Below, in pieces: positions 2,641-63,487 of a stretch of 64,000 nucleotides of DNA. Every line of letters begins with the position of its first letter. Position 1 is the first letter of the stretch. The position numbers and the translations under genes are program-made. The DNA is from Multifurca ochricompacta. Lineage: Eukaryota; Basidiomycota; Agaricomycetes; Russulales; Russulaceae. Under the pieces are notes generated by a model. The model saw only the letters and a program-made list of their open reading frames with translations. It was not told the DNA's origin and did not search any database. The stretch spans positions 1 to 64,000 of the forward strand of contig WTXG01000056.1 of NCBI GenBank assembly GCA_022496185.1, written 5' to 3'.

Positions 2641-3085
2641 TCATGTAAATTGCTTAGTAATAATGTTAAACTATTATGGACTATCTGAGAACTGCTTTGT
2701 GAACTGCTTTGTGAACCGCTTTGCCAACCCAAAAAACGTGATAAACATAAAAACTAGACTAACAAGTCCTAGATTTGAAAAGTAGCTTTAGATTAAAAAG
2801 TAGCTTTACATTGAAAAGTAGCTTTACATTTTCAAAAGTAGTTCTAGGCATGAAGACATGTTTGCTATATCTACTTTTGAATTTAAAGTGCTAGAAGGGC
2901 TAGATTGGCTAGCAATAGTCAATCTAGCAATATGTCATTTTCCTGATGTCTTATCTTTACTGTAGTTAGCTAACGCTTAGTAATAGCCTATCCGCTATCT
3001 ACATAGGTAAAGATACTAATTAATATATAAGTTTTGACCACAACAACTGAACCTATCCACTATCTACATAGATAGCTAAACCCTT
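2640..3085 (+). repeat. Decayed LTR fragment with E2-spacer-E1-E2 leader modules
   Basis: AT-rich sequence whose right half has the layout of the copia LTR at 15696-16098, with a different primary sequence. An intron-like 3' end (...tagctaacgcttagtaatag, ending 2986) is followed by E2 (2987-3006), a gt...ag spacer (3007-3031), E1 (ttttgacc..., 3032-3051) and a second E2 joined directly to it (3052-3071). The first E1 is not recognisable. LTR limits are approximate; no target duplication was found. Confidence 0.5.
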
Positions 3086-12592: not shown

Positions 12593-15557
12593 ATGAGTAA
12601 CGCTATTCAACTGTCTCTTCAAGTCCTTAAAGAGGGGAGCGCTTTTGCAAGCAAGATCCCTTATATCGCCCCCATCGCGGGCCTCTTACTTCAAGCGCTT
12701 ACCATGAGAGACGCAAGTACCCAACCCCCGCCTAGCGTCACAAATCTTATAAATCCATCTTCAGGAAATAAATCAGTACAAAGGAGAGTGTGAAGAGGTC
12801 ATGCGGAAGCTTATCAGGATCGCGGGACTTGTCATCAATGTTGGAGAGTCATGCCGAACCCACAAACTGAACGAGGACGATCTTCCTGCTGGCCTGCATG
12901 CTATTTTCAAGTCGCTTCAAAGGTACGTATCTCGTGTCGTAATAATTTAATCTCTTCGTCTCCTGATCGATGGAAAGTGAGTTGGATGGGATCAAACACG
13001 TCCTTGGAGAGTGTGCCAAAGCCAGAGGGGCCAGAAGCCTATTGCTGCGCAAGGATCTACTCGGGAAAATCAAGAAGTATGATGCCAGGTTGGCGAATGT
13101 ACTTGAAGTCTTTCAGGTCCGTCTCGAATCTGTCCTCTACATTGTCCGTCTGATAAGATCTACATAGGCGGAGCTGTTGGTGGATATTCGCTTTGCGCAA
13201 ATCGCCGATAGGCGCGATGTATGTTGCATAGTCTACGTCAAGGGTATTCTAGTCGACTGACTTGTATTTAATAGGTCCACCGTGCTGTCCCTACTGAGAT
13301 CTCAACGTAGGCACTCCTCCCTCGTGCTCATCCCACGAGCGACTCCTGATTGTCGTTCAGGTCTATTGTACAGTCCGCGCTTGCTCCACCCCCGCCACAG
13401 ATATTTTTTGGACGTGATGCCGAACTTGCCCACATCATTCACATCATATTCACCAATATCGGGTCCCGCCCAGGCAGGATTGCCATCTTAGGTCCTGGCG
13501 GATACGGAAAAACTACGCTTGCCAATGCGGTACTCAGTCATGATCGCGTTCAAGAACACTTCGAGGATGCCAGATATTTCATATCTTGTGAATCTGCCAC
13601 TTCATCCGATGCCCTCTTGATCCAGATTGTGAAGACCCTTGGCCTCGTAATGGGTCCCCCAGATTCCCTCTGGCCTCAAATCCTTGCTACTCTGAATTCA
13701 AAGGAGACCATCCTATGTCTTGATAACTTTGAGTCACCATGGGATCAGTCTAATGAGACAAAGCGCTCCGTTGAGGTTCTTCTGTCTCGGATCACATCAC
13801 TTCGTCATGTCACTGTTCTTGTCACCATGCGAGGTGCCCAGCGGCCAGGTCAAACTGAATGGACACAACCATTCTTAGATCCACTTGGAACCATTGGTTT
13901 AACTGCTGCCAAGGAGATCTGGAGGCGTATTGTTGGCAGTTATGATGACTTCTCAGAGAAACTTATTATGGCTGTGGACTATGTTCCTCTTGCTGTTGAC
14001 TTGCTTGCCCATCTTTCTCAGGTCACTCCACCTAGGTTGTTATGGGAGGAATGGAGCACAAGGCAGACAAAACTCATCAAAATGGGTGAAGTGAACAGGC
14101 TTTCAAACATGGAATATTCTATACAGCTCTCCATCAATAGTCACAGGATGACCAGCAATCCAGATGCAAAGGATCTTCTTGGGATTCTCAGCATGCTTCC
14201 AGATGGGCTTCATATTAAACAGCTGAACAGATTTAAAGGGATTCTGGTTGACATGGATATGTTATCATGCATTCAAGTTCTTCAGCAATGCAGTTTGATC
14301 AATATGATTGGAGATAGATATCAGCCACATCCTATAATCCGTCAATTCTGTAATAATCAAGGGTTTACTTTGTCTACACACAAAACAGCTCTTGAAGAAT
14401 TCTATGTTTCCTTAGGATTGATTGATGTGTTGAGAGCAGCTCCAGAGACTTATGCAGAAATGGTTCTAGAAGTGAACAACACTAAAGCCATGTTATCAGG
14501 CTTACTGAAATCAAACCTTGTTGATCAATCAAGGCTAATTCATGCTATTTCCATGTTCACTGAACTCTGCATGAATATTGGAGACTTCTCCAGTACATTG
14601 CTAAATCAATCTGTCCAATTGTTGGCAAAAGGTGATGCTCCAGCACTTTTAATTGAATGCTTGAGGGTATGGGGAAGACTATGCTATCGTGCAGATGACA
14701 TGGAATCTGCAAAGCAGAAATTTCTGGAAGCAGAAAGATGTTGCTTATCAAGTACAGTGGATGTTGGTTATCTCCATGGCTCTATCCTTACTAGTCTTGG
14801 CCTTGTTTATTTATCCAAATTTCTACTGAATGAGGCTGAGGCCACATATCAAAAGGCATTAGACCTGCATAAGGCAAACCAGAACATCTTTGGCCAAGGG
14901 GAAAGTCATTATGGGCTTGGACAGACATATGCAGGACTAGGCAAGCTGAATGAGGCAAAGGCCTCATACCAAAGAGCTTTGGAATTCCATAAAGCTGCAG
15001 GTGATAATGTTGGGCAGGGAAATGATTACCACAAACTTGGAGAAACATACCAGAGGCAGAACATGTTTTTTGATGCAGAGGCTTCATTCCAGAAAGCATT
15101 GGATTTTCAAAAGATGGCCAATCATGTTATGAATCAAGGAAATGCCTATTCTGGCCTTGGACACACATACAGAAAGCTAAACAAGTTAAATGAGGCAGAA
15201 GCCTCATATCAAAAGGCATTAGAACTTCATACAGCTGCCAATAGCCTTTTCAACCAAGGAATAGATCATCAAGGACTTGGAGAAACATATTTACTCATGA
15301 ACAAAGTAAATGAAGCGGAAGTCTCATTTCACAAGGCATTGGAAATCAAGAAGGTTGCAAATGATTCTCTTGGCCAGGGAATTGCCATAAATGGACTAGG
15401 AAGGGTGCATGTGCTGAGATCACAGTTTGAAGAAGCCAGGAGCTTGTTTGAAGAAGCTTTGAAGCTTCATAGACACATGCAAGCAACAGATTGGGAAGAA
15501 AATGACCAATTGCACCTAAATAATGTCTTAGCTAAAATGAGGATTGCTTCAGAGTGA
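12593..15557 (+). CDS. NLR-like receptor: MLKL-type helical N-terminus, NB-ARC-like NTPase, TPR repeats
   Basis: Six exons: 12593-12712, 12765-12922, 12978-13116, 13168-13218, 13275-13306 and 13361-15557. The product is 898 aa. The first intron has a GC donor (gcaagt). Residues 1-165 are predicted helical (e.g. GLLLQALTMRD, LLVDIRFAQIADRRDVHRAV) and resemble the MLKL_NTD/HeLo-like four-helix bundle of basidiomycete receptors. A STAND NTPase follows with Walker A GPGGYGKTTLA, Walker B ILCLDNF and a sensor-like VLVTMRG. The C-terminal 270 residues hold about six TPR units of about 40 residues (pattern LNEAEASYQKALELH). By family analogy it is a cytosolic sensor that oligomerises on ligand binding and may act through its N-terminus; this is inference. 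All frames are open. The part from about 13,930 onward is almost free of CpG, unlike the upstream part. A copia element lies 138 bp downstream. Confidence 0.85.
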
Positions 15558-15690: not shown

Positions 15691-15695
15691 TATCA

Positions 15696-16098
15696 TGTCG
15701 GAAATGGATCAATATGGCCAGGTCGGATCAATCGCTAAGTGTGTGGTACTAACAAGCGAGTTGTGTGTTGTGCAGTAGCACGCGGACTGTGTTTCACCTT
15801 CCTGTGAATACTTTGATACCTTACTTGATTAGACACAATCCTTTATTGTCTTGGTTACTATAAGCACACTCGTTTACAGTATTTAAAGGACGCTTTTACT
15901 GTACAGTTCACTTCAGTTCTGACCAACACAACTGAAGTGAGTATTTTGTTATCTTATCTTTACCTATGTAGCTAACGCGTACTAGTTATAACTACCATTC
16001 TAGGTAAAGACTAATATTATCAGTTCTGACCAACACAACTGAATTATAACTACCATTCTAGGTAGTTTGGATTATCTAACCTCAGGCTGCGTTCTTTA
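15696..16098 (+). repeat. 5' LTR of the young copia element
   Basis: Holds a TATA-like tatttaaagg at about 15880-15889. From 34 bp downstream it has the leader modules E1 (15914-15936), intron-like gtgagt...gctaac...ctag (15937-15985), E2 (15986-16003), spacer gtaaag...cag (16004-16023, its cag overlapping the next module), second E1 (16021-16043) and second E2 joined to it (16044-16061). The rest is U5-like. Confidence 0.92.
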
Positions 16099-16113
16099 GG
16101 TTATGGGCCCTGG
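16099..16113 (+). promoter_or_regulatory. Primer binding site, half tRNA-iMet type
   Basis: GGTTATGGGCCCTGG follows the LTR with no gap. It is complementary to the anticodon arm of initiator tRNA-Met, as in Drosophila copia, so minus-strand synthesis is probably primed by a cleaved tRNA-iMet half rather than by the tRNA 3' end. The same motif follows the LTRs of the two related minus-strand copies (34899-34913 and 36786-36800). Confidence 0.85.
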
Positions 16114-16462
16114 CCGTAACTGAATTAATCCAGAAGAAGATCGAATTTCATACACAAGCTTCCTTACTCAGTAATTCACGCATTTTTGCATCTCCCGATA
16201 AGGCAAGTCTCTGTTCTTTTGTAGTCCTATTCCCTGGTCCCTGGAACCAGTGGATCGGTGTAGACTGGGCCCCTCACCGGGCTTCGCGTGAGCCGTGCGA
16301 TGGAGCGTGGCGACGCTGAAGCACGTGTGAGCAATCCCTAATCGGGACTGGACCCTTTGCGGTTCAGAGCGTACAGTTGGATACATCGGGACTTGATCGG
16401 TCTTCACGATCTGGGTCTGACAGCTCCTCTACCCAGATTGGAAATCGTCGCTTACACGCACC

Positions 16463-19400
16463 ATGGCACCTGCGTTCACTTTCCCACCTTCTGCTGCAAT
16501 CGAGATCCTAGATGGATCGAACTGGCCAGTTTGGTCAGCGCGTATGATGGCTCTGTTCCGTTTGAATGGCGTCCGGAACCACCTGCTTGAAGACAAGCCT
16601 GCTAGCCCTCCTGCTGACTGGGAGGCTACTGAAGGGGTTCTCTTAGCAATCCTCGAGCTCTATGCTCAGAAGGATGTCTGGACAGCCGTGGCAGACGACA
16701 CTAAGTTTGTCACATGTAAAGCTAAATGGGACGAGCTCAAACGCGTCTATGGGGGAGTCGGATCTATGTCCGCATTCAATACTTGGTCTGCCCTCACCGG
16801 CACCGCGCTGGACGAGTCCTCCCCCATGCTCCCGCAATTGCAGAAACTCAATGATGCCCGCGTCACACTGAAAAACAACGAGATGGAGATTTCAGATCTC
16901 CAGTTTAGTTTCATCCTGATCAAAGCACTACCCGAATCGTACTCCGCCGTCGCGTCCACCATACTAGCATCCGGATCGCCGAAGGATCTTACCCCTCAGA
17001 CTATCCAAGAGCGGATTCTGAATGAGGAAGGTCGTCGATCTGGTGGTTCCGCCTCACTCAACAAAGCCGCGCCCATCAAACAAAAGCATGACAAGAAGAA
17101 CACCAAATGTTTCTATTGTCAGAAGAAAGGGCACAAGGCAGTAGAGTGCTGGAAGAAGAAAAAGGATCTGGAGGAGAAGAAGGGATCGGAGACCGCGCAG
17201 GCCAGTAACAAGGCCGTTAACGCGCACTTAGCAGTTCAGACAGCGTCTATCGTAGAGATAGGCGATGACAATGACGATCTCCGCGTTTCCCTTTACTCGG
17301 CTGTGCGATCACGTTGGATGATGGATTCCGGCGCAACGCATCATATCACCCCAAATCGGTCTGACTTTATTCAGTATACTCCGGCGGCTGGCATTGTACG
17401 CCTGGGAGACAACTCAAATGTGCGACAAATTGGGGTTGGGACTGTGGTATTCAAGACCACTGCAGGTAGTAGAGGTTCTGAGATCACCCTAAGCAACGTG
17501 CTGCACATACCAGACGTTACGACGCGTTTCATTTCTACGCGTGCACTTGCTCAGAAGGGGGCTCAGATCTCTTTCACAGATAAAATCTTTAAGATCTCAG
17601 TCCGAGACCGGACGGTAGCGCAGGGTTACTTGGAGGACAACCTATACTGGCTGGATGCCTCCATGGCTGGACTCAATGCGCACGCTCAAACGTCGCAACC
17701 TATCGACATCTGGCATCGCCGCATGGGGCATATGTCATACAACGCCCTCAAGCGGTATCATGAATCCATCAAGGGAATATCATTTGATGCTCTGATCGAT
17801 CAACATCAGTCGCCATGCCCCGGGTGCGAGCTCGGGAAACACACGCGACTCCCCTTTAAGTCCTCTCACAAGCGATCGGACCGGCGGCTACAGATTGTTC
17901 ACAGCGATCTGGCCGGGCCGATGCAGATTCAGTCTATTCAAGGCGCGCTCTACATTGCAACATTTATCGACGACTACTCTAGACATGGTGTGGTCTACTT
18001 CCTCAGATCCAAAGATCAGTGTGCAACAGCATTTCGGAAATTTCTAGCTTGGGCTGAGACTCAATCATCGGAAAAGATGCTGGCCTTGCACTCAGATCGC
18101 GGGGGGGAGTACATGTCAGGCGCGCTTAGAGCTGTACTGGACGAACGGGGGATCGAGCATAAGTTGACGATGCCGGGATCGCCGCAACAAAACGGCATAG
18201 CCGAGAGATGGAACAGGACCATCATGGACAAGGCGCGCTCTATGCTACACAGCGCTGGCCTGTCCCTTGGCTTCTGGGAGTTGGCAGTGGACACTGCCGT
18301 TCATACTTACAACAGGACTCCCACCCGAACTATAGGTTGGCGCACGCCTCACGAGCTCTGGAGTGCTGGTCACACTCCAGACGTCTCTTATTTCCGCGTC
18401 TTCGGATGCAAGGCATATGTTCATGTGCCTGAGAACAAGCGAAGAAAGCTCGATCCGAGATCAATCGAGATGACGCTTGTTGGGTATGAGCCGGGTTCTA
18501 AGGGTTACCGGCTATGGAACAAGAGTACCCGAGCAGTCGTCCTGTCGCGCGACGTGACATTCGACGAACGCTCCTTCCCATTTCAGGACAATGGTGAGCC
18601 GTCCATTCGTTCTGATCAACCTAAGGCCCTGGAGGGGCCACTGGCCGTTACATTCCCTATGGCTGTCCCTACGCAAACTCAAGGGGAGGTCGATCCGCCA
18701 AGGACGCCATCCCCTGTTGCCACACAGCAAACCCCAAGTTCTGGTAATACAGTCTGGGCTACCCCGCCTTCACGCCCCGCAATGCAAGAGCCCCCGCCCT
18801 GCGCGCCGCGCAACCGGTTTCTCCGGACTCAGCGGACCGTTGTCCCCACTTTGGGGGACGTGCCCCCTCGGAGACTGCGAGAGAATCCTCGCAGGAATCC
18901 ACATTACTTTGGCGATGATAATGCCGAGTTAGGTGAGGATGGGCGACTCGGGCATCGTGCTTTGCTTGCGGCGGCTGCATATAGTGATCCGCTCACATAT
19001 CGGGAGGCGATGAAGTCAGACTATGCTAGCGACTGGCAGGACGCGTGCCAATATGAAATGGACGCACTAGCCAAGAATGGAACTTGGACGCTAGTGGACT
19101 TACCGGCCGATCGGAAGGCTGTGAAGTCCAAGTGGGTTTTCAAGCGCAAGGCCGATGGACGCTTTCGCGCACGCTTAGTTGCTAAGGGATTCACGCAAAT
19201 TCAAGGTATTGATTATGATGAAACATTTTCTCCAGTAGCCCGGTTCGAGTCATTGAGACTGTTACTGGCGTTGGCCGCGCTAGAGGATTGGGAGATCCAT
19301 CAAATGGACGTCAAGTCGGCGTTCCTGAACGGACTACTGGATGAGGAAATTTACATGGAGCAACCGGAGGGTTTCATCACATCGGGCCAGACGAATAAGG

Positions 19401-20524
19401 TATGCCTACTGAAAAAGGCAATTTACGGACTCAAACAAGCCTCACGCGCATGGAACTTGCAATTCCATGGAGTTCTATTGGAACTCGGCTTCACGCGCAC
19501 ATTTTCTGATGCCGGGGTATACGTGCGTCGTCGCCAAGACAGGGAGGGTACAGCAATTATAATCCTCTATGTCGACGACATCACTATCTTAGGCGATACT
19601 CTCAAGGAGGTTAACCGGATCAAGGGGATCTTATCTAAGCGCTATGAAATGACAGATCTAGGTGAGATCGACTCATATCTTGGAGTCCAGATCACACGCG
19701 ACAGATCTATCAAGCGTCTGGAAATTGATCAATCACGGTACATTGGAGAGATCGTTGCACGCTTTGGGATGGCGGATGCGAACCCCACGCGCACACCACT
19801 CCCTGCTGGGGCAGATGTCCATCTGGTAAAGCACACTGAACAGGCTACTCAAACAGAAATCACTTATTATCAGCAAATTATTGGGAGCCTTCTGTATGTG
19901 CAAATTGGGACTCGCCCTGACATTTCTTTCGCTGTAGCGCGTCTTGCGCAGTATGCAGCAAATCCTTCGCCGCAACACCTACGACTTGCCAAATATGTGC
20001 TGGCTTATCTAAGGAGTACAGCCAACCTTAGGCTTCGTTACGATGGAGCGCGCGGAGAGGGACTTGTCGGCTACTCGGACTCCAGTCTTGGGGACCACGC
20101 CGACGATCATCATTCCACCTCGGGCTACGTTTTCTTACTCGCTGACTCATCCATCTCTTGGACCTCGCGTAAGCAGAAGACTGTCGCCCAAAGCACCACT
20201 CACGCAGAGTACATGGCACTTGCCGAAGCGGCAAATCAAGCCACTTGGTACCGGAGCTTCCTCTCGGAACTCGGCTACGATGTCACAGATCCGATTCCCT
20301 TACATGGCAATAACAAAGGGGCAGTGGACTTGGCTCTCAACCCCGTGACCGGGCGAAGATCCAAACATATTGCTATCAAATTCCACGCCATTCGCGAATA
20401 CGTCGAACAGGGACACATCGATCTAATCAGGACACCCACTGGAGAAATGCTAGCTGATGGATTCACAAAACCACACGCGCATACGCAACTCCAAGACTTC
20501 GTCACTGGACTAGGGCTTATCTAA
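16463..20524 (+). CDS. Copia Gag-Pol polyprotein (1353 aa, intact)
   Basis: Single open frame. Domains in order: Gag (UBN2-type, residues about 1-200), CCHC zinc knuckle CFYCQKKGHKAVEC (about 215), aspartic protease MMDSGATHH (about 290), GAG-pre-integrase block WHRRMGHMSYNAL (about 418), integrase core with HSDLAGP, HSDRGGEY and the Q-Q-NGIAERWNRT region (about 480-600), reverse transcriptase from KSKWVFK (about 890) through QMDVKSAF and the catalytic ILYVDD (about 1035), and RNase H with GYSDSSLGDH and STTHAEYMAL (about 1200-1260). The order protease-integrase-RT-RNase H is that of Ty1/copia (Pseudoviridae). Gag and Pol share one frame with no shift. All catalytic motifs are present, so the element could be active. 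Confidence 0.97.
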   Translation: MAPAFTFPPSAAIEILDGSNWPVWSARMMALFRLNGVRNHLLEDKPASPPADWEATEGVLLAILELYAQKDVWTAVADDTKFVTCKAKWDELKRVYGGVGSMSAFNTWSALTGTALDESSPMLPQLQKLNDARVTLKNNEMEISDLQFSFILIKALPESYSAVASTILASGSPKDLTPQTIQERILNEEGRRSGGSASLNKAAPIKQKHDKKNTKCFYCQKKGHKAVECWKKKKDLEEKKGSETAQASNKAVNAHLAVQTASIVEIGDDNDDLRVSLYSAVRSRWMMDSGATHHITPNRSDFIQYTPAAGIVRLGDNSNVRQIGVGTVVFKTTAGSRGSEITLSNVLHIPDVTTRFISTRALAQKGAQISFTDKIFKISVRDRTVAQGYLEDNLYWLDASMAGLNAHAQTSQPIDIWHRRMGHMSYNALKRYHESIKGISFDALIDQHQSPCPGCELGKHTRLPFKSSHKRSDRRLQIVHSDLAGPMQIQSIQGALYIATFIDDYSRHGVVYFLRSKDQCATAFRKFLAWAETQSSEKMLALHSDRGGEYMSGALRAVLDERGIEHKLTMPGSPQQNGIAERWNRTIMDKARSMLHSAGLSLGFWELAVDTAVHTYNRTPTRTIGWRTPHELWSAGHTPDVSYFRVFGCKAYVHVPENKRRKLDPRSIEMTLVGYEPGSKGYRLWNKSTRAVVLSRDVTFDERSFPFQDNGEPSIRSDQPKALEGPLAVTFPMAVPTQTQGEVDPPRTPSPVATQQTPSSGNTVWATPPSRPAMQEPPPCAPRNRFLRTQRTVVPTLGDVPPRRLRENPRRNPHYFGDDNAELGEDGRLGHRALLAAAAYSDPLTYREAMKSDYASDWQDACQYEMDALAKNGTWTLVDLPADRKAVKSKWVFKRKADGRFRARLVAKGFTQIQGIDYDETFSPVARFESLRLLLALAALEDWEIHQMDVKSAFLNGLLDEEIYMEQPEGFITSGQTNKVCLLKKAIYGLKQASRAWNLQFHGVLLELGFTRTFSDAGVYVRRRQDREGTAIIILYVDDITILGDTLKEVNRIKGILSKRYEMTDLGEIDSYLGVQITRDRSIKRLEIDQSRYIGEIVARFGMADANPTRTPLPAGADVHLVKHTEQATQTEITYYQQIIGSLLYVQIGTRPDISFAVARLAQYAANPSPQHLRLAKYVLAYLRSTANLRLRYDGARGEGLVGYSDSSLGDHADDHHSTSGYVFLLADSSISWTSRKQKTVAQSTTHAEYMALAEAANQATWYRSFLSELGYDVTDPIPLHGNNKGAVDLALNPVTGRRSKHIAIKFHAIREYVEQGHIDLIRTPTGEMLADGFTKPHAHTQLQDFVTGLGLI

Positions 20525-20550
20525 TCCAGGATTGTCTCAATCACGGGGGA

Positions 20551-20953
20551 TGTCGGAAATGGATCAATATGGCCAGGTCGGATCAATCGCTAAGTGTGTG
20601 GTACTAACAAGCGAGTTGTGTGTTGTGCAGTAGCACGCGGACTGTGTTTCACCTTCCTGTGAATACTTTGATACCTTACTTGATTAGACACAATCCTTTA
20701 TTGTCTTGGTTACTATAAGCACACTCGTTTACAGTATTTAAAGGACGCTTTTACTGTACAGTTCACTTCAGTTCTGACCAACACAACTGAAGTGAGTATT
20801 TTGTTATCTTATCTTTACCTATGTAGCTAACGCGTACTAGTTATAACTACCATTCTAGGTAAAGACTAATATTATCAGTTCTGACCAACACAACTGAATT
20901 ATAACTACCATTCTAGGTAGTTTGGATTATCTAACCTCAGGCTGCGTTCTTTA
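20551..20953 (+). repeat. 3' LTR of the young copia element
   Basis: Same length and, by reading, same sequence as 15696-16098, preceded by the purine tract ggggga and followed by TATCA. Confidence 0.92.
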
Positions 20954-20958
20954 TATCA

Positions 20959-22615: not shown

Positions 22616-23285
22616 CTTTCAGATCCAAGGGATCCATGAGAAAATTCTCACACAGATCTGGGCTCCTGAATCTGGAAACATAATGGCCACATTGGGGATT
22701 GAACCCAAAACCTCCAGACAACCTGTGTCTACACACACACACACACACTCCAACCACTGAGCCACCCAGCCTCACTAGTAAAGACACACAATATATTATA
22801 TATAGGGTTATGAAAAATTGATTTTATCACTTGTATCTAATTAATTGTGAACACATTTTTGATCTTATCACTTAGATGTATGTCCTAAGTATCTAATTAA
22901 TTATGAATGCATTTTTGATCTTATCACTTGTATTATCTAAAACAAAGATACTGGTACAGATGTTTCAAAATAGCAGTCTGACATAATTGTGATTACACAT
23001 AGATAACACAAGTGATAAGATCAAAAATGCATTCACAATTAATTAAATACTTAGGATATACATCTAAGTGATAAGATCAAAAATGTGTTCACAATTAATT
23101 AGATACAAGTGATAAAATCAATTCTGCATAACCCTATATATAATATATTGTGTGTCTTTACTAGTGAGGCTGGGTGGCTTAGTGGTTAGAGCACTGGACT
23201 GAGCTTGTTCCCAGAGGTCTTAGGTTCAATCCATGTTTCAGCCATTTCTGTTCTAGGTTGATGAGCCTAGTAAAAAAATAATTTT
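22616..23285. repeat. Inverted repeat of about 200-bp arms carrying a tRNA-like SINE head on each side
   Basis: Two inverse arms (about 22755-22945 and 22990-23190) meet around 22968: gccacccagcctcactag... on the left is matched by ...ctagtgaggctgggtggc on the right, with repeated ataagatcaaaaatg blocks between. Outside each arm runs a pol III-type head: on the minus strand near 22690-22765 (box A TGGCTCAGTGG, box B GGTTCAATCCC) and on the plus strand near 23168-23238 (box A TGGCTTAGTGG, box B GGTTCAATCC). These are tRNA-derived SINE copies placed back to back, not functional tRNA genes. Confidence 0.6.
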
Positions 23286-23465: not shown

Positions 23466-26083
23466 ATGCCCTATATATAACAGAACTCCCATCCATTCCA
23501 ATAAGTGGAAAACTCCGCTTGAGCTTCTGGTTGGGAACAAACCAGATGTCTCGTATTTCAAGGTCTTTGGTTGCAAAGCCTATTATCATGTTCCAGAGGG
23601 CAAGTGGTGTAAATTAGATCCCAAAGCAAGGGAAGCCGTCTTTGTCAGGTACAAGCCCACCTCTAAGGGCTATACACTTTGGGATAGTCATACCTGGTCT
23701 CTCATCTCTTCATGAGATGTTACATTTGATGAGAGATCCTTCCCATCCCGCTCTGAAAAGGACAACAGAGCAGATAAATCCATGGAGCAACCTAGTCAAG
23801 GTGGCTCATTTACTTTACCTAGTGGCCAAGTCCAGCCACCACCAGCAACTGCTACGCATGTTCCTGAGGCTCCTCAAGATGAGGAAGACCTGGAAGAGGA
23901 ACAGGAGGACATCATACCTCCTCAATTACCACCACAGCCTACCACACCCACACGTAATGTAGACACCACACAACCTCAGACTATATATCAGACCCCTCCA
24001 TCACAAGTTATGGAACCATCCTCCCCTCCCAAAAGAACCCATGCAATCAGAAAATCAGAAAGGATTGCAGGCAAAATTCCTCAACCTAATTTTCAGAGGA
24101 CAAGTCCCCGCTCTGAATGATGAGATAGGGCAATCCAAGAAGATTTAGACTTGGATACTGCATGTCCCAATCGCAATCGTCGTCTGAACCCTCAATTCTA
24201 CAATGAGGATAATGCAGAGTTTGTGCAAGGTTCTTCCAGACTTGGTCAGATGGATCTACTCAATGCTGCAGGATCGCCTTATAGGGATCCTCTCACATTT
24301 AAAGAAGCAATGGAGTCTGATAATGCCAGTGACTGGCTTGAGGCATGTCAATATGAAATTGATGCCTTAGAAAAACTTAAAGTGTGGCGCCTTGAAGACC
24401 TTCCAGAAGGTAGAAAGGCTGTAAAGTCCAAGTGGGTCTTTAAATTAAAAGCAGATGGATGATTTCATGCTAGGCTTGTAGCAAAAGGGTTCACCCAAGT
24501 AGAGGGGGTGGACTTCGACAAACTTTCTCCCCAGTCGCCAGATTTGAGTCTCTTAGACTATTGTTAGTGTTGGCCACACTTGAGGATTGGGAAATCCACC
24601 AAATGGATGTTAAATCAGCATTCCTACATGGCGATCTGGATGAGGAGATTTATATGGAGCAACCTGTTGGTTTCGTCATTGCTGGACAAGAGTCCAAAGT
24701 TTGTAGGCTACAGAAGGCTCTGTATGGCCTCAAACAAGCTTCCCGAGCATGGAACTTGCAATTCCATGCAGTTCTCAAAGAACTGAGCTTTACTTGGACA
24801 TACTCTGATGCAGGAGTATATGTGTATCATCACCAAGAGGGGGATGGTTCACTTTTCGTCATTTTATATGTTGATGACATCACTATACTTGGGTCCTCCA
24901 CTAAGAAGATTCAATGGCTGAAGGATGCTCTATCTAACTGATATGAGATGTCCGATCTCGGCGAAATCCAGTCCTACCTTGGAGTTAACATCACCAGGGA
25001 TTGTCCTAACAAGACACTGGATATTGACCAGACAGCCTATGTATCCTCCATAGTTGAGAGGTTTGGAATGGGGGATTCCAACCCAGTATATACTCCTCTA
25101 CCCTCTGGCATGGATGTTCATTTGGTCAAGTTTGAAGACCAGGCATCTACCTTTGATATTAAGAGGTATCAGCAGTTAATGGGGTCTCTGCTTTGGGTGC
25201 AGATTGGAAGCAGACCTGACATTAGTTTCGCTGTTGCATGCCTTAGCCAATTTGCTTCCAACCCTTCCCAGCAGCACATGCAACTAGCAAAGTATGTCTT
25301 AGCCTATCTAAATGCTACAAAAGACTACAAGTTGCGCTATTCTGGAGGGAATGGTGAAGTTGGCCTTCATGGCTTTGTGGATTCCTCATGGGGAGATCAA
25401 GAGGACTGCCACTCCACCTCTGGCTATGTGTTTTTCCTTGCAAATGGAGCCATTAGTTGGTGCTCCAGGAAACAAAAGACAGTAGCACAGTCCACCACAG
25501 AAGCCAAGTATATGAGCCTAGCAGAGGCTTCAAATCAGGCTGTGTGGTATAGGACATTCATGCAGGAATTGGGATATGAAGTTAGTTCACCCATACAACT
25601 GCATTGTGACAATAAGGGTGCAGTAGATCTTGCATTAAACCCTGTCACTGGAAGGCGATCAAAGCACATACCAATAAAGTACCATGCCATTAGGGAGTAT
25701 GTAGAATCACACCAGATAGACTTGGTGCGAACTCCCACTGGAGAGATGCTAGCAGATGGCCTTACAAAGTCTCTGCCTAGATCATCTTTTGATCTCATGG
25801 TAACTGGATTTGGACTAGTGCTGGAATGAAGGAGCTGGAATCTGGAGACCTTGTACACCAGTTTCACTTTCCCACCATGCCACATGAGCACATTCTCAAC
25901 CTCAAGAGTGACGCAAGAAGTGTGTAGAACTAGCATAAGTGAATCTACAACTCGTATGCAAAGCTCACAAAGAGTTAGAGAAGTTGGATCTCTGGCTGGT
26001 GACATGTTCATTCAATTGTGAACAAACAGTGTGCTCATTCAACTCATTTCCATCTAATGATCGATGCCTTCACCATGGAGGGA
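23466..26083 (+). pseudogene. Older copia element, 5'-truncated pol with TGA stops at CGN codons
   Basis: The coding remnant starts in the integrase C-terminal region (KPDVSYFKVFGCKAY), runs through RT (DWEIHQMDVKSAF, ILYVDD at about 24866) and ends with an open RNase H-containing block (24948-25829). Gag, protease and most of integrase are missing. In-frame TGA codons at 23713, 24460 and 24939 sit where the young copia has CGC, and a one-base deletion lies near 24519. A 254-bp non-coding stretch leads to the 3' LTR at 26084. The RNase H end is well preserved, but the element cannot move on its own. Confidence 0.9.
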
Positions 26084-26569
26084 TGTTGACACAGGACATG
26101 TCTGGAGATGCTTCAGGCATCTAAGGTTCGCTTCAGCTGTAGATTAGATTAGATTAGATTTCGGAGTATCGGACTTTTTATGTTATCTTTATTACATTTC
26201 TTTCTCACCTTACTCAGCTGATTAGTGATGTCCTTAGTAATGCGCAGTAAGCATGTGATATCTCTTTGGCCAATGGCCTTTATCCCTCTACTGTTTATTG
26301 TCGGCACTTGTGGACTTATTCCCAGTGCGCACAGACCATCCCTTGGGGTATATAAGGGTGTCTGTTTCATCTCTTTCACTTCAGAGTTCTTCTAACCTCT
26401 GAAGTGTAAGTTCCTCTTTTACTATACTGTCTTTTACCTTTAACTAACTGTCTTATGTAGACTACTTGTTTTCTAGGTCAGTAGTATAGTTAATACAGAG
26501 TTCTTCTAACCTCTGAAGTACTACTTGTTTTCTAGCCTAACACGCTACTAACCTCAGTCAGTATAACCA
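26084..26569 (+). repeat. 3' LTR of the older copia (about 486 bp) with duplicated leader modules
   Basis: Begins tgttgacacagg after a purine tract (ggaggga) and ends near ...gtataacca. It contains tatataagg at about 26350, then E1 (26382-26405), intron-like gtaagt...taactaac...tgtag (26406-26460), E2 (26461-26476), spacer (26477-26498), second E1 (26496-26519) and second E2 joined directly (26520-26535). It also forms the left outer part of the large palindrome. Confidence 0.85.
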
Positions 26570-26613
26570 GCAGCATGATTGTTTGACATGAGTTTAGTGG
26601 CATCATGGAGCTA

Positions 26614-28207
26614 CAGTGGGTCAAAAAACCGTCCCGATGTTTGCACCATTTCTAGTATTCACTCTATAGCACCTCAGCATTTAGGAATCTGGTTATGGTG
26701 TGGCTGTATGTCTGAAAGCCCTGCTTCCTGGCTACCATGCCCAATTTGGATCAAAGAGATTGGCCATGATATAAGCATTTTATGATCAAATCAAATCAAT
26801 CAATCATCGGGATGGTTTTTTGACCCACATTTTAAATCCACTATCTGCCCAATTACTCCTTTTTTTCACCCCTTTTTGCCTTGGTAACTCCTTGAATCCT
26901 TTTAGTCATCCTTTCTATAACCTTTTGCCATCATTCTGGTGCATTTTTATTCCACTCCTCCACCACCCTCTCCCACAACTCAGGTATCCCCTTGACTGGT
27001 TAAGAACCTTCTTCAGATCCACCCAGAGGTGTCCAATGGGGCTAATATTTCAAGGGATTGGGCTATCCATACCAGGCTTCAATATTCCTGTCTTAAAACT
27101 GCTGGCTTGCCTTCTTGGAATTGTGTTTTGGGTCATTGTCCCACTGAAACATGCTTTCACCCTCCACCATTTCTTACTTTTCAAACCTTTCCACCACTCC
27201 GCCATCCAAAATATCACAGTACTGGCATGGATTCATGATCCCCTAAACCCCTGTAAGCATTCCTAGTCCATTCCACCCCATACAAGACCAATACCATAAG
27301 TTCTTCCTCCTCCATGCTTGACTGTCAGGGTGGTGGTTCTGTCAGAGGGTGGTTCTCCCTTATTTTTCCCAAGTGTAGCTCCTTCTGTCTGAACCAATTC
27401 TGTTCATTATAGTCTCACCTGACCACAAGATCCTTTTCCAGTCATCCACTGTCCAATTTTCATGGTAACCACCCTCTGACAGAACCACCACCCTGACAGT
27501 CAAGCATGGAGGAGGAAGAACTTATGGTATTGGTCTTGTATGGGGTGGAATGGACTAGGAATGCTTACAGGGGTTTAGGGGATCATGAATCCATGCCAGT
27601 ACTGTGATATTTTGGATGGCGGAGTGGTGGAAAGGTTTGAAAAGTAAGAAATGGTGGAGGGTGAAAGCATGTTTCAGTGGGACAATGACCCAAAACACAA
27701 TTCCAAGAAGGCAAGCCAGCAGTTTTAAGACAGGAATATTGAAGCCTGGTATGGATATCCCAATCCCTTGAAATATTAGCCCCATTGGACACCTCTGGGT
27801 GGATCTGAAGAAGGTTCTTAACCAGTCAAGGGGATACCTGAGTTGTGGGAGAGGGTGGTGGAGGAGTGGAATAAAAATGCACCAGAATGATGGCAAAAGG
27901 TTATAGAAAGGATGACTAAAAGGATTCAAGGAGTTACCAAGGCAAAAAGGGGTGAAAAAAAGGAGTAATTGGGCAGATAGTGGATTTAAAATGTGGGTCA
28001 AAAAACCATCCCGATGATTGATTGATTTGATTTGATCATAAAATGCTTATATCATGGCCAATCTCTTTGATCCAAATTGGGCATGGTAGCCAGGAAGCAG
28101 GGCTTTCAGACATACAGCCACACCATAACCAGATTCCTAAATGCTGAGGTGCTATAGAGTGAATACTAGAAATGGTGCAAACATCGGGACGGTTTTTTGA
28201 CCCACTG
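26614..28207. mobile_element. Tc1/mariner-like element rearranged into a palindrome with two 3' ends
   Basis: Both ends read CAGTGGGTCAAAAAACCG (inverse at the right) and both are flanked by TA, the Tc1 target. Within the arms is a decayed transposase C-terminal half (HGGGRTYG, GTMTQNT for the DNDPKH-type region, PIGHLWVDLKK for NPIEHLW, LWERVVEEWNK). The loop on the minus strand encodes WTVDDWKRILWSGETIMNR, the block holding the first catalytic Asp, here changed to Gly (WSGET). No N-terminal DNA-binding half is present. In each arm an inverted inner copy of the terminus (left arm 26805-26828) delimits a 215-bp end module. Confidence 0.8.
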
Positions 28208-28249
28208 TAGCTCCATGATGCCACTAAACTCATGTCAAACAATCATGCT

Positions 28250-28735
28250 GCTGGTTATACTGACTGAGGTTAGTAGCGTGTTAGGCTAGAAAACAAGTAG
28301 TACTTCAGAGGTTAGAAGAACTCTGTATTAACTATACTACTGACCTAGAAAACAAGTAGTCTACATAAGACAGTTAGTTAAAGGTAAAAGACAGTATAGT
28401 AAAAGAGGAACTTACACTTCAGAGGTTAGAAGAACTCTGAAGTGAAAGAGATGAAACAGACACCCTTATATACCCCAAGGGATGGTCTGTGCGCACTGGG
28501 AATAAGTCCACAAGTGCCAGACAATAAACAGTAGAGGGATAAAGGCCATTGGCCAAAGAGATATCACATGCTTACTGCGCATTACTAAGGACATCACTAA
28601 TCAGCTGAGTAAGGTGAGAAAGAAATGTAATAAAGATAACATAAAAAGTCCGATACTCCGAAATCTAATCTAATCTAATCTACAGCTGAAGCGAACCTTA
28701 GATGCCTGAAGCATCTCCAGACACATCCTGTGTCA
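28250..28735 (-). repeat. Inverted LTR copy, mirror of 26084-26569
   Basis: Inverse copy of the LTR, including the E1/intron/E2/spacer/E1-E2 series. Its U3 end (tgttgacacagg) abuts unrelated hAT sequence at 28736, so this is not the second LTR of an ordinary insertion. Confidence 0.85.
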
Positions 28736-29283
28736 ACAACTCACCCATGAACTCCACATCCAAGTTGCATTGACACTATCAGTGTCCATCCCTGAGCCAT
28801 CATCTTTGTCCTCCATCAGCATATCATTCCAACCCTCAGCATCAGACCCTTCTTCAGACCCTTCTCCACCATCATTGCCATCCTCCTCATCTTCACCATC
28901 TGGGTTGATCTCTGCTTCAAGAATTGAGGAAGGAGCTGGTTCCTGAAAGAGTAGACCATGTTGTATTGCACATTTGACACCCTGCAGGGCCTTGACAATA
29001 TCTCCTTTGAGTTGGTTTCAATTTTTGGTGATTGTAATGCCACCCTGCAAGAATGTGTGTTCACTTGACACAGAAGATGACATGATCAATAGATAGTCAT
29101 GAGCTAGCAAAGCCCACACAGGATGATAGTGAGAGCAATTGACCTGAGAAACTTTCATGATAAGATCATCTGAATCTTGAGCTGTGAGGTACAACCACTC
29201 ACCCCCCACCATCTAATTGCAGACCAGCCATCTGGTACCTGCTCACTAACATCCATGTATGCATCAAAATGCCAAGACCATGG
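28736..29283 (-). pseudogene. hAT transposase C-terminal fragment
   Basis: On the minus strand, about 29212 to 28760 encodes VWALLAHDYLLIMSSSVSSE followed by TFLQGGITIT and an acidic tail. This is the pattern of the hAT dimerisation domain of basidiomycete transposases (normally ...ARDYLPI-SSVSSERAFS...GITI). The RNase H-like catalytic core is absent. The fragment lies between two LTRs and is truncated on both sides. It is possible evidence of the autonomous source for the many hAT MITEs here. Confidence 0.65.
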
Positions 29284-29775
29284 TGTTGAACACAGGATGT
29301 GTTTGGTGATGCTTCAGGCATCAGGAGATTAGATTAGCTACTTTGTGGACTAGATTAGATATTGGAGTTTCGGACTATTTACCATATCATTATTACTTTC
29401 TTTCTCACATCCCACAGTAGCTGACTGATGTACCTTAGTAATGATGTACAAGCATGTGATTCCTTATTGGCCAATGGCCTTATTCCCTCTTATTTGTTGT
29501 TTGCACTTTGTGCAGCACTTGTGGACTTATTCCCAGTGCACAGACCATCCCTTGGATAGTATATAAGGGTGTCTGTTTCGTCTCTTACACTTCAGAGTTT
29601 TCTTCACCTCTGAAGTGTAAGTCCCAGTCTCTATACTTACTGCCTTACCTTTAACTAACCATCTCTTGTAGATAACTTGTTTCTAGGTGTGTAGTATAGT
29701 AATACAGAGTTTTCTTCACCTCTGAAGTATAACTTGTTTCTAGCCTTACATGCTAACCTCTACAGTCAGTATGCT
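29284..29775 (+). repeat. Third LTR type (about 490 bp) with duplicated leader modules
   Basis: Related to but diverged from the 26084 LTR. It starts tgttgaacacagg, has tatataaggg near 29560, then E1 (ending 29616), intron-like gtaagt...taactaac...tgtag (29617-29671), E2 (29672-29686), spacer (29687-29707), second E1 (29705-29728) and second E2 joined directly (29729-29743). The right border is approximate because it was judged by where similarity to 26569 ends. Confidence 0.75.
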
Positions 29776-33394: not shown

Positions 33395-33613
33395 TTGACA
33401 CAAGTGTAGTGCCGCACATGCAACTCTCACATGACCTTGGTATATAAGGTTATGCTCCATGTAGAACCCAGGCCGTGTAGCTCAGTGGTTAGAGTGCCGG
33501 ACCCGGATTGTCCAGAGGTCTTGGGTTCAATCCCCAACGTGGCCATTCCTTTTCTAGAGCGTGGGTTAGGGTCTTACTTAAGGTCCCTTTGCCGGAGTGC
33601 GTGTGGGCCAACA
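33395..33613 (+). mobile_element. tRNA-derived SINE, 219 bp
   Basis: Flanked by 7-bp duplications TACAATG (33388-33394 and 33614-33620) within copia sequence. It contains a tRNA-like region at about 33474-33548 with box A TAGCTCAGTGG and box B GGTTCAATCCC, and acceptor-stem pairing that needs two G-T wobbles. A roughly 78-bp leader precedes the tRNA-like part, which is unusual for a SINE. The 3' tail is not poly(A). Confidence 0.7.
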
Positions 33614-34913: not shown

Positions 34914-35209
34914 TAATGAACACAGCCTGAGGTTAAATAATCCAAACTACCTAGAATGGTAGTTATATTTCAGTTATGTTGGTCAGAACTGAAGTGAACT
35001 GTACAGTAAAAGTGTCCTTTAAATACTGTAAACAAGTGTGCTTATAGTAACCAAGATAGAGAAGGATTGTGTCTAATCAAGTAAGGTATCAAACTATTCA
35101 CAGGAAGGTGAAACACAGTCCATGTGCTACTGCACAACACACAACTCACTTGTTAGTACCACACACTTAGCAATTGATCTGACCTGGCCATATTGATCTA
35201 TTTCCAACA
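34914..35209 (-). repeat. Short LTR (296 bp) with only the joined E1-E2 leader
   Basis: Same family as the 403-bp LTR, but the intron-like segment, first E2, spacer and one E1 are missing: E1 runs straight into E2 and on into the U5-like part (about 34951-34994, minus strand). The opposite end tgttggaaat is preserved. Confidence 0.85.
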
Positions 35210-36800: not shown

Positions 36801-37204
36801 TAAAGAACACAGCCTGAGGTTAGATAATCCAAACTACCTAGAATGGTAGTTATAATTCAGTTATGATGGTCAGAACTATATATTGATTAGTCTTTACCTA
36901 GAATGGTAGTTATAACTAGTGCGCGTTAGCTACATAGGTAAAGATAAGATAACAGAATACTCACTTCAGTTATGATGGTCAGAACTGAAGTGAACCATAC
37001 AGTGAGAGCATCTTTAAATACTGTAAAAGAGTGTGCTTATAGTAACTGAGACAATAAAGGATTGTGTCTAATCAAGTAAGGTATCAAGGTATTCACAGGA
37101 AGATGAAACACAGTCCTAGTGCTACTGCACAAGACACAACTCGCTTGTTAGTACCACACACTTAGCGATTGATCCGACCTGGCCATATTGATCCATTTCC
37201 AACA
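36801..37204 (-). repeat. 404-bp copia LTR with full leader modules
   Basis: Inverse-strand LTR of the same family as 15696-16098, including the gtgagt...ctag intron-like segment and the joined E1-E2 copy. It differs by scattered substitutions and so is older. Confidence 0.85.
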
Positions 37205-58907: not shown

Positions 58908-59111
58908 ATCATCAGCATCATCTAAATAGATTAGATTAGATTAGATGAATTCATCTCTTCTTGCTTGCTCGGTTCCGTATCGGTTCTATTCACGCAACAT
59001 TTGCCTGAAATACTTCTTTCGTATGATGGTCCCCTCCTTCCTTTCCTCGTCCTCCCCCCCCCGGTGATAATCAAGATTGTTAGCAACCCATCCCTACTGA
59101 ATACGGGCTTT
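58784..59111. other. Divergent promoter region
   Basis: Between the ABP1-like gene (minus) and the SRPBCC-like gene (plus). Contains an ATT microsatellite (58876-58906) and gattagatta repeats (58930-58943). Confidence 0.5.
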
Positions 59112-59735
59112 ATGTTCACCATCAGATCTTCGAGCCTCATTAAAGCTCCCAAGCAAAAGGTTTGGGACACTCTAATCGACTTTGAGTCTTACAACGAATG
59201 GTATGTACTGTCTTTATTTTATTTTTTCAAAGCTGCTAGACATAATCATAATTCACAGGAATCCATATATGTATGTACTCACTCACCACCCTTTCTCACT
59301 CTCACCGCAAGACCGACATTCCACAGACGAAAGCAAGAGATCATCAACGAGCATGACAAGAGTCCCTCGGCCACTCAAATACCCGCACCAGGTCGCCGCA
59401 TCCGCATCCACACTAACTTACCCCCAACCATGGTCGACGATGAAAACAAGAAGCCATTCACAACGGGCGAAATCCTGACGCATGTAGATGATGAGGCCTT
59501 CCGGCTGGCGTGGCGCTTTGCGACGCCAGCGCACTGGCTGATCAACGCGGAGCGCTGGCAAGTCTTGCGAGACGATGAGTCACGCCCAGGTGGTCAAACG
59601 ACGGTATATGAGACATGGGAGACCTTTGGAGGTTTACTGGCCCTCCTTATCTGGTTATTCATGGGCACGAAGCTCCAGGTTGCGTTCGACGCCATGGGGA
59701 GTTCGTTGAAGGATCGAGCTGAGCGTGTGGCCTGA
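59112..59735 (+). CDS. SRPBCC (START-like) fold protein, copy 1
   Basis: Exons 59112-59200, 59259-59270 (a 12-nt micro-exon) and 59327-59735; 169 aa. The first residues MFTIRSSSLIKAPKQKVWDT match the start of Polyketide_cyc/SRPBCC proteins, then LIDFESYNEW joins NPYI and RKQEIINEHDKSP, GRRIRIHTNLPPTM, FRLAWRF, VYETWETFGGLLALL and LKDRAERVA. The fold binds hydrophobic ligands; ligand and pathway are unknown. The first intron has a normal gtatgt donor. It is paralogous to 62834-63487. Confidence 0.8.
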   Translation: MFTIRSSSLIKAPKQKVWDTLIDFESYNEWYVLSLFYFFKAARHNHNSQESIYVCTHSPPFLTLTARPTFHRRKQEIINEHDKSPSATQIPAPGRRIRIHTNLPPTMVDDENKKPFTTGEILTHVDDEAFRLAWRFATPAHWLINAERWQVLRDDESRPGGQTTVYETWETFGGLLALLIWLFMGTKLQVAFDAMGSSLKDRAERVA

Positions 59736-62527: not shown

Positions 62528-62833
62528 AGGGAGAAAAGCAAAATGATCGATCGAGCGCGCCACGAATTTCACGTTTATTTGTTTGTTAAAGTTTCCCCCA
62601 AAATCCGCTACTGTATTTTTAATATCTTATTTTTCTTGTATTGGCCACAATTTTGTTGTACTACTACATGTTACCTCACCGTCTCACCGTGGAATGATGA
62701 TTGATTGATTGATTTAATTTAATTTAAATTACTTACATACATACAATCATCACGTGAGTTGTTGCCTAACTAATAAGTCAACCACAAGTCCACTTCAAGT
62801 TTGGTCACGCCACCTCCCCCCAGCCAGCCAAAG

Positions 62834-63487
62834 ATGGGTCTCATATTCTCATTCACCATCAGATCTTCAATCTCCATTGATGTTCCCAGGCAGAAAGTTT
62901 GGGACACATTAATCGACTTTGAGTCCTACACCGAATGGCACGTAATCCCTCCTTATACTATAATCTTTTGTTTCCAAGCTGTTAGACCCAATTTACAGGA
63001 ATCCATATATGTATGTACTCACTCACCACCCTTTCTCATTCTCACCGCGAGGCCAATAACGCAACCGACATTGCACAGACGAAGGCAAGAGGTCATCAAC
63101 GAGCATGACAAGAGTCCCTTGGCCTCTCAAATAGCCGTGCCAGGTCGCCGTATCCGCCAGCGAGTCAACATACCTCCGACCATGGACGATACAGGCAAAC
63201 CATTCACGACGGAAGAAATCCTGACGCATGTCGACGATGAGGCATTCCGGCTGGCGTGGCGCTCTGCAAGGACCGCGCGCTGGCTTCTCACCGCTGAGCG
63301 CTGGCAAGTCTTGCGAAACGGCGGGTCAGTCCCGGGTGGTCAACAAACAACAACTACATATGAGACGTGGGAGTTCTTCGGAGGGTTATTGGCCCCTCTT
63401 ATCTTGTTATTCATGGGCACGAATCTCCAGGTTGCGTTCGATGCTATGGCGCGAGCGCTGAAAGATCGAGCTGAACGTGTAGGCTGA
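62834..63487 (+). CDS. SRPBCC (START-like) fold protein, copy 2, with a GC-AG first intron
   Basis: Exons 62834-62937, 62999-63010 (12 nt) and 63079-63487; 174 aa. It reads MGLIFSFTIRSSISIDVPRQ, WDTLIDFESYTEW, RQEVINEHDKSP, GRRIRQRVNIPPTMD, FRLAWRSARTARWLL and ALKDRAERVG. Exon structure, including the micro-exon, equals copy 1. The first intron starts gcacgt where copy 1 has gtatgt, so this copy relies on a GC donor. The coding frame is intact and divergence from copy 1 is moderate, so both may be functional. Confidence 0.8.
   Translation: MGLIFSFTIRSSISIDVPRQKVWDTLIDFESYTEWHVIPPYTIIFCFQAVRPNLQESIYVCTHSPPFLILTARPITQPTLHRRRQEVINEHDKSPLASQIAVPGRRIRQRVNIPPTMDDTGKPFTTEEILTHVDDEAFRLAWRSARTARWLLTAERWQVLRNGGSVPGGQQTTTTYETWEFFGGLLAPLILLFMGTNLQVAFDAMARALKDRAERVG

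Follow-up and report, generated by a model that had tools for sequence, protein, structure and literature searches.

Long terminal repeats (LTRs) of a retroelement lineage in the fungus Multifurca ochricompacta carry their leader twice, once as two short exons (E1 and E2) separated by an intron-like stretch and once more, a little downstream, with the same two exons joined. This layout is real and general. In our view its best explanation, and quite a probable one, is a split R region that is spliced twice, followed by landing of the resulting cDNA on the joined E1-E2 and regeneration of the LTR. We also favour, with somewhat less assurance, the wider proposal that the lineage replicates through a spliced R, whereby the 5′ R would come into being only after two introns have been removed and a ready-spliced DNA copy would serve as the landing site.

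The window, by which we mean the whole stretch of DNA analysed, comprises 64,000 nt of contig WTXG01000056.1 (positions 1 to 64,000), and the coordinates of its relevant features are collected in Table 1. For the founding LTR, the original prediction had given the order E1, 49-nt intron, E2, a spacer running from GT to AG, and joined E1-E2. That order is correct to the base; the supposed end of the spacer is not, since it is the second E1 that begins with this AG. The further claim that the second E1-E2 is the splice product of the first was borne out letter for letter. Transcription would start at 15915, give or take 2 nt.

Table 1. Coordinates of leader, LTR and element features in the window.
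Feature	Position	Strand	Remarks
TATA-like box TATTTAA	15880..15886	+	35 nt upstream of the putative +1
First E1 (exon 1) AGTTCTGACCAACACAACTGAA	15915..15936	+	Exact repeat of 24 nt counting the preceding TC
Intron 1 (putative), GTGAGT...GCTAAC...ACTAG	15937..15985	+	49 nt
First E2 TTATAACTACCATTCTAG	15986..16003	+	18-nt micro-exon; TAG end, then GT
Spacer, GTAAAG...	16004..16021	+	
Second copy, E1 and E2 joined	16022..16061	+	Where spliced strong-stop cDNA is proposed to land in the 3′ LTR
Proposed intron 2 (spacer + second E1-E2), TTCTAG end	16004..16061	+	Basis: AG/GT edges, missing E1-E2-spacer
U5	16062..16098	+	Basis: LTR end
Inverted repeat across the putative start site	15908..15940	+	U3 arm pairs with E1 end and intron-1 donor
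5′ LTR, family A	15696..16098	+	403 bp
3′ LTR, same element	20551..20953	+	Identical to the 5′ LTR; double leader too
Likely primer-binding site GGTTATGGGCCC	16099..16110	+	Directly after the 5′ LTR
ORF, Ty1/copia gag-integrase-reverse transcriptase polyprotein	16421..20524	+	1367 codons stop to stop
Family C double leader	26383..26535	+	E1 26383-26405, intron 1 26406-26460, E2 26461-26476, spacer 26477-26496, E1-E2 26497-26535
Family C double leader, mirror arm of 2.65-kb palindrome	28287..28438	-	
Another family C double leader	29594..29743	+	E1 29594-29616, intron 1 29617-29671, E2 29672-29686, spacer 29687-29705, E1-E2 29706-29743
Family A double leader	36838..36986	-	E1 36965-36986, intron 1 36916-36964, E2 36898-36915, spacer 36878-36897, E1-E2 36838-36877
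Collapsed family A LTR	34914..35209	-	U3, one joined E1-E2 (34951-34990), U5
Truncated family D LTR	2987..3071	+	E2 2987-3006, spacer 3007-3029, joined E1-E2 3030-3071

The founding LTR belongs to an intact-looking element (15696-20953) with identical LTRs and one open frame; a 404-bp stretch at the 5′ LTR is 100% identical to 20550-20953, and the element is flanked by a 5-bp target-site duplication, TATCA (15691-15695 and 20954-20958). A domain search of the open frame returned Retrotran_gag_2, gag_pre-integrs, rve and RVT_2. The element therefore has gag, integrase and then an RVT_2-type reverse transcriptase in a single polyprotein, the order that defines Ty1/copia, along with the identical LTRs and 5-bp duplication of that group. 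Assignment to copia by coding domains rests on this family A element and, for family C, on an RVT_2 fragment at 24942-25829, which precedes the LTR at 26084. The likely primer-binding site is presumably complementary to the anticodon arm of initiator tRNA-Met. Both LTRs start with TG and finish, at 16098 and 20953, with TTTA rather than the usual CA. Just upstream of the copia element lies a 735-codon open frame (13350-15557) with NB-ARC and tetratricopeptide repeats, a STAND-type protein.

Recurrence of the layout with other sequence had likewise been claimed, and we found it in two further family C leaders, in the mirror arm of one of them, in a family A leader on the minus strand and, in part, in a truncated family D LTR, together with the joined form alone in the LTR at 34914-35209, where a single E1-E2 is present as predicted (Table 1). 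The mirrored leaders belong to a palindrome (26084-28738; 97% inverted identity) in which a family C LTR and an inner sequence, by eye like a Tc1/mariner fragment, are joined to the mirror of both. A gapped-duplication detector accepting any 11+11 nt gave 1165 groups, of which 86 were GT-AG; among the matches listed, most of the others were tandem arrays or came from the same LTRs read on the opposite strand. We then searched the window and loci L001-L090 with the donor motif CTGAA(GT)/GTRAGT and the search range following it. The whole layout (at most 4 mismatches in 24) was present at 80 of 91 non-redundant donor-bearing places, a count that takes in alleles and near-copies and whose members are not independent; the remaining 11 were truncated, rearranged or mutated.

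From these 80 places 78 LTRs on 48 contigs were parsed (33 of family A, 21 of family D, 21 of the GTAAGT-type group C and 3 others), those outside the parse being a minus-strand copy at L079 with a truncated U3 and L083 with a mutated GT. As the parse set E2 by AG/GT and E1 by TTC/AG or GTC/AG, the 78/78 at those sites holds by construction and is not evidence. In the parsed LTRs intron 1 measures 48-57 nt, E2 14-20 nt and the proposed intron 2 56-65 nt, while the spacer proper is 17-23 nt long and opens with GT. A TATA-like box precedes the putative +1 by 34 nt in 47 LTRs and by 35 nt in 26, none being found in 5.

Splice sites and copy boundaries coincide closely. The donor reads GAA/GTGAGT in 57 LTRs and GAAGT/GTAAGT in 21, and the second E1 ends accordingly in 78/78. 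In family C the E2 start shifts by as much as 3 nt with respect to a conserved ACTT, which gives 8 different heads, and the second copy tracks the head in all 21 LTRs. Exon ends that move with the splice sites would be hard to obtain without a spliceosome, and the ragged tandem duplication that had been named in advance as a refuting outcome is not what we see.

At the other end of the exon pair, the E2 copies diverge at AG/GT in 42 of the 80 places and, in another 36 where U5 itself begins with GTA, three bases further on, with 2 exceptions; an AG/GT boundary stands at the E2 end in 78/80, and GT follows the second copy in 0 of 21 family C LTRs. Since identity ends at AG/GT, a donor comes after the first E2 and an acceptor closes the second, and this edge points to a second intron made up of the spacer and the second E1-E2. 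Removal of both introns would leave E1-E2-U5, which is just what the second copy reads together with U5. Two points weigh against this reading: the donor of intron 2 is frequently the weak GTAAAG, and no clear branch point was found for it.

We began from a model in which only intron 1 is spliced. Under it the cDNA would be E1-E2-spacer-E1-E2-U5, and the extra units would later be trimmed by reverse transcriptase slippage between direct repeats. Intron 1 has the strongest signals (GTRAGT donor in 78/78, by the search rule, and CTAAY near the 3′ end in 77/78), and direct repeats of 40 nt could slip. This model predicts E1-E2-spacer joints, however, and in pattern searches of the genome (53.8 Mb, 605 contigs; 0 matches to a reversed control pattern) there were 0 in family A at up to 3 mismatches, versus 127 first-copy joints (intron 1-E2-spacer), and 0 in family C, versus 1,423 first copies, with an exact pattern that would fit the E2-spacer part of 15 of the 21 local LTRs. 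E1-E2-U5 occurs 148 times in family A. The totals of 127 and 1,423 take in alleles. The model also leaves the end of E2 at AG/GT unexplained; we have dropped it and regard it as unlikely. The original prediction, which had strong-stop cDNA made on spliced RNA, stands in so far as a reverse-transcribed spliced leader best explains the joined E1-E2, and has to be amended in that it spliced the first module only and lacked the second intron.

The two copies also change together. Both exons are identical between copies in 62 of 78 LTRs and 1 edit apart in 9 (identical in 32/33 of family A, 19/21 of family C, 9/21 of family D and 2/3 of the others), and the first copies fall into 30 haplotypes with a median difference of 15 edits. 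At shared variable sites, counted with rows of non-modal length omitted, the copies of family A agree in 33/33, 32/33 and 33/33, and those of family C in 18/18 at six E1 sites and in 15-16/16 at eleven E2 sites. Thus the second copy matches what splicing of the first would yield and changes along with it, in family D in part. Differences between the family D copies lie mostly at one CpG in E2, where they could reflect decay after insertion, and some lie elsewhere. In 11/78 LTRs the second copy is nearer to another haplotype, which, like the family D discordance, counts against our best model. The best reading of the co-variation is splicing-templated rewriting, i.e. the second copy would follow the first because it is rewritten from it in each cycle via splicing.

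Several individual cases deserve mention. L075 and L076, on two contigs with homologous flanks, have a first-copy difference in common that may be one event. The near-identical L086 (C564) and L087 (C111) have a second copy that is short by about 10 nt at its E1 end, a loss that affects both an A-like and a D-like LTR and for which the model offers no explanation. Finally, the window's insertion (15691-20958) is present a second time, between the same flanks, on the small contig C485, apparently its other allele, the assembly apparently holding both haplotypes. In the C485 5′ LTR both E1 copies, which set the two alleles apart, share a base that neither the 3′ LTR on C485 nor C512 has at that position, through either conversion from another element or an assembly error, and that both copies changed alike is a sign that concordance can arise without transposition.

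This allele, in which both copies of one LTR are altered together, speaks for a history at the DNA level: a tandem duplication, an intron-like insertion or deletion in one copy, and gene conversion keeping the copies alike. Deletion between E1 or E2 repeats would moreover yield the two by-product forms described below. From such a history one would not expect GT-AG joints that are exact and shift along with the splice sites, edges that are sharp on either side in all families, or a variable base right at the start-site edge, and an intron-free double form, the absence of which counts against it, was not seen in the genome-wide family A and C patterns. We consider it distinctly unlikely.

The variable base in question lies where the spacer meets the second E1. 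The two E1 copies are identical from +1 onward in 33 of the 80 places, from -1 in 14, from -2 in 29 and from -3 in 1. The -1 base before the second E1 is the most variable of the spacer; in family D, counted without the shifted L067, it is non-modal in 8/20 compared with 6/440 at the other spacer positions (Fisher p 7e-9). In nine spacer stems variation is confined to the final two bases, and in one family A subgroup five insertions share the same first 30 nt of U5 and have four different ends. C is much commoner at -1 (43/78) than elsewhere in the spacer (77/1,321), as if the C that stands before +1 in U3 were at times included. Under the double-spliced reading this edge would mark where the copied RNA 5′ end met the 3′ LTR, and either start-site wobble or untemplated addition would fit the variability.

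Collapsed LTRs (U3-E1-E2-U5) number 24 in family A and, by exact pattern, 34 in family C genome-wide. Their -1 base is C in 24/24 family A copies, and the junction variability is absent there. On a family A U3 tree of 52 rows (34 double, 13 collapsed and 5 in neither class, with one collapsed row under 200 nt omitted) the double/collapsed label needs 7 changes, which may be gains or losses; the starred branches force 5 of them, and the bootstrap is not settled. Given these several changes a single origin of the collapsed LTR was dropped. In the C595 element both LTRs have a U3 identical to that of double LTRs. Dropped too was the idea that the collapsed form is a mis-landed spliced cDNA, as repeat slippage or a spliced 3′ LTR would account for the invariant -1 base no less well. 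In family A, deletion between the two E1 repeats is as good a source of collapsed forms as splicing. A second form, intron 1-E2-U5, occurs at six places genome-wide in family A, which we count against our best model; of five inspected, three proved to be complete intron 1-E2-U5 LTRs, and the other two have rearranged upstream sequence. Since both forms could be repeat deletions, they favour no model over another.

Double splicing and landing on the second copy are, taken together, likely, and the proposed cycle would run as follows. Transcription would begin at the first E1, and the 5′ leader would lose introns 1 and 2, so that E1-E2-U5 comes to lie beside the primer site and strong-stop cDNA made on it consists of E1-E2-U5. 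The 3′ LTR of the RNA, whose 3′ end we place by inference, would keep its introns, perhaps through pairing of U3 with the first donor. The cDNA would anneal to the joined second E1-E2 of this unspliced 3′ LTR and extend through spacer, E2, intron 1, E1 and U3, giving a full-layout LTR equal to the parent LTR, with first copy, introns and spacer drawn from the 3′ LTR and second copy and U5 from the spliced 5′ leader. The earlier suggestion that the joined E1-E2 lets the intron persist gains support in this way, the joined copy being best explained as a reverse-transcribed spliced leader. Were the genomic RNA to start at the second E1, with the second copy as R, no splicing needed for transposition and the first module used only for spliced mRNA, the same strong-stop cDNA would result, yet this is highly improbable, as it is the first E1, not the second, that has the TATA-like box 34-35 nt ahead of it, and both copy co-variation and splice-site tracking would go unexplained.

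How the 3′ LTR would escape splicing in the double-spliced cycle is a matter on which predicted folding has some bearing, donor masking being one possible means. The U3 arm CACTTC is complementary to GAAGTG at the first donor. For 42 GTGAGT-type sequences the predicted cost of opening the first donor is 14.1 kcal/mol with U3, 3.8 in RNA starting from E1 and 6.1 with shuffled U3; for 20 GTAAGT-type sequences the respective values are 11.9, 6.0 and 5.2, and in 62/62 sequences opening is predicted to be costlier with U3 than from E1 or with shuffled U3. In the C type, however, U3 does not lower the mean predicted probability that the donor is unpaired (0.20 vs 0.18), and for that reason we advance donor masking as a hypothesis.

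Foamy virus comes closest among the systems we compared. Its major splice donor lies inside R in both LTRs, and an RNA structure in the 3′ LTR, which there takes in 13 nt from upstream of the start, keeps U1 from binding, the 5′ end staying open, so that a measured precedent exists for a 3′ LTR fold that hides a donor (PMC3694450). That donor governs poly(A) choice and spliced mRNAs, however, and neither a pre-spliced LTR copy nor an R intron regained in each cycle is described (PMC3694450). Ogre, EVADE and Cer1 are likewise LTR elements with functional introns, but these give subgenomic or regulatory RNAs, and none is described in an LTR or tied to strand transfer in the cited part of that review (PMC12786077). 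HIV-1 resembles the proposed cycle in that spliced retroelement RNA serves as a template of reverse transcription, although its spliced-RNA products, as the cited part presents them, lack genes and represent a side path, whereas here the spliced leader would be the normal template (PMC1868081).

A literature search, limited to open-licence papers, found no LTR with this double-leader layout. Penelope-like elements keep introns through transposition, but they are not copia-type LTR elements and their mechanism may well differ. Among the viral contigs searched there were no relatives; other genome contigs hold two distant copia fragments (L091 and L092), and no double leader is visible by eye in the first 1,500 bases of L091. 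At the protein level, the reverse transcriptase has relatives at 70-82% identity, among the matches listed mostly on short contigs, and the nearest named fungus among the 120 matches listed is Trametes sanguinea (56-57%). Protein relatives, together with the types of element and the intron signals, are suggestive of a basidiomycete.

Elsewhere in the window, a tRNA-Ser (GGA) call at 33471-33545 and two degenerate look-alikes (22671-22729 and 23167-23232) with short homologous flanks are perhaps a tRNA-derived SINE, and a tandem gene pair (58935-59735 and 62777-63487; 79% identity over about 650 nt) gives weak Polyketide_cyc2 matches.

An intron in the R of a retroelement should be lost in the first cycle because RNA is the template, and the double leader would solve that. 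If the proposed cycle is true, introns inside the terminal repeat survive passage through RNA, and one portion of the LTR is not inherited but documents the most recent spliced transcript. What R does as 5′ template would be separated from what it does as 3′ landing site; to our knowledge both roles fall to the same sequence in LTR elements. Each LTR, in a genome with more than 1,000 copies of one family, would store its last parent RNA as it was after splicing, including the positions of its start site and splice sites.
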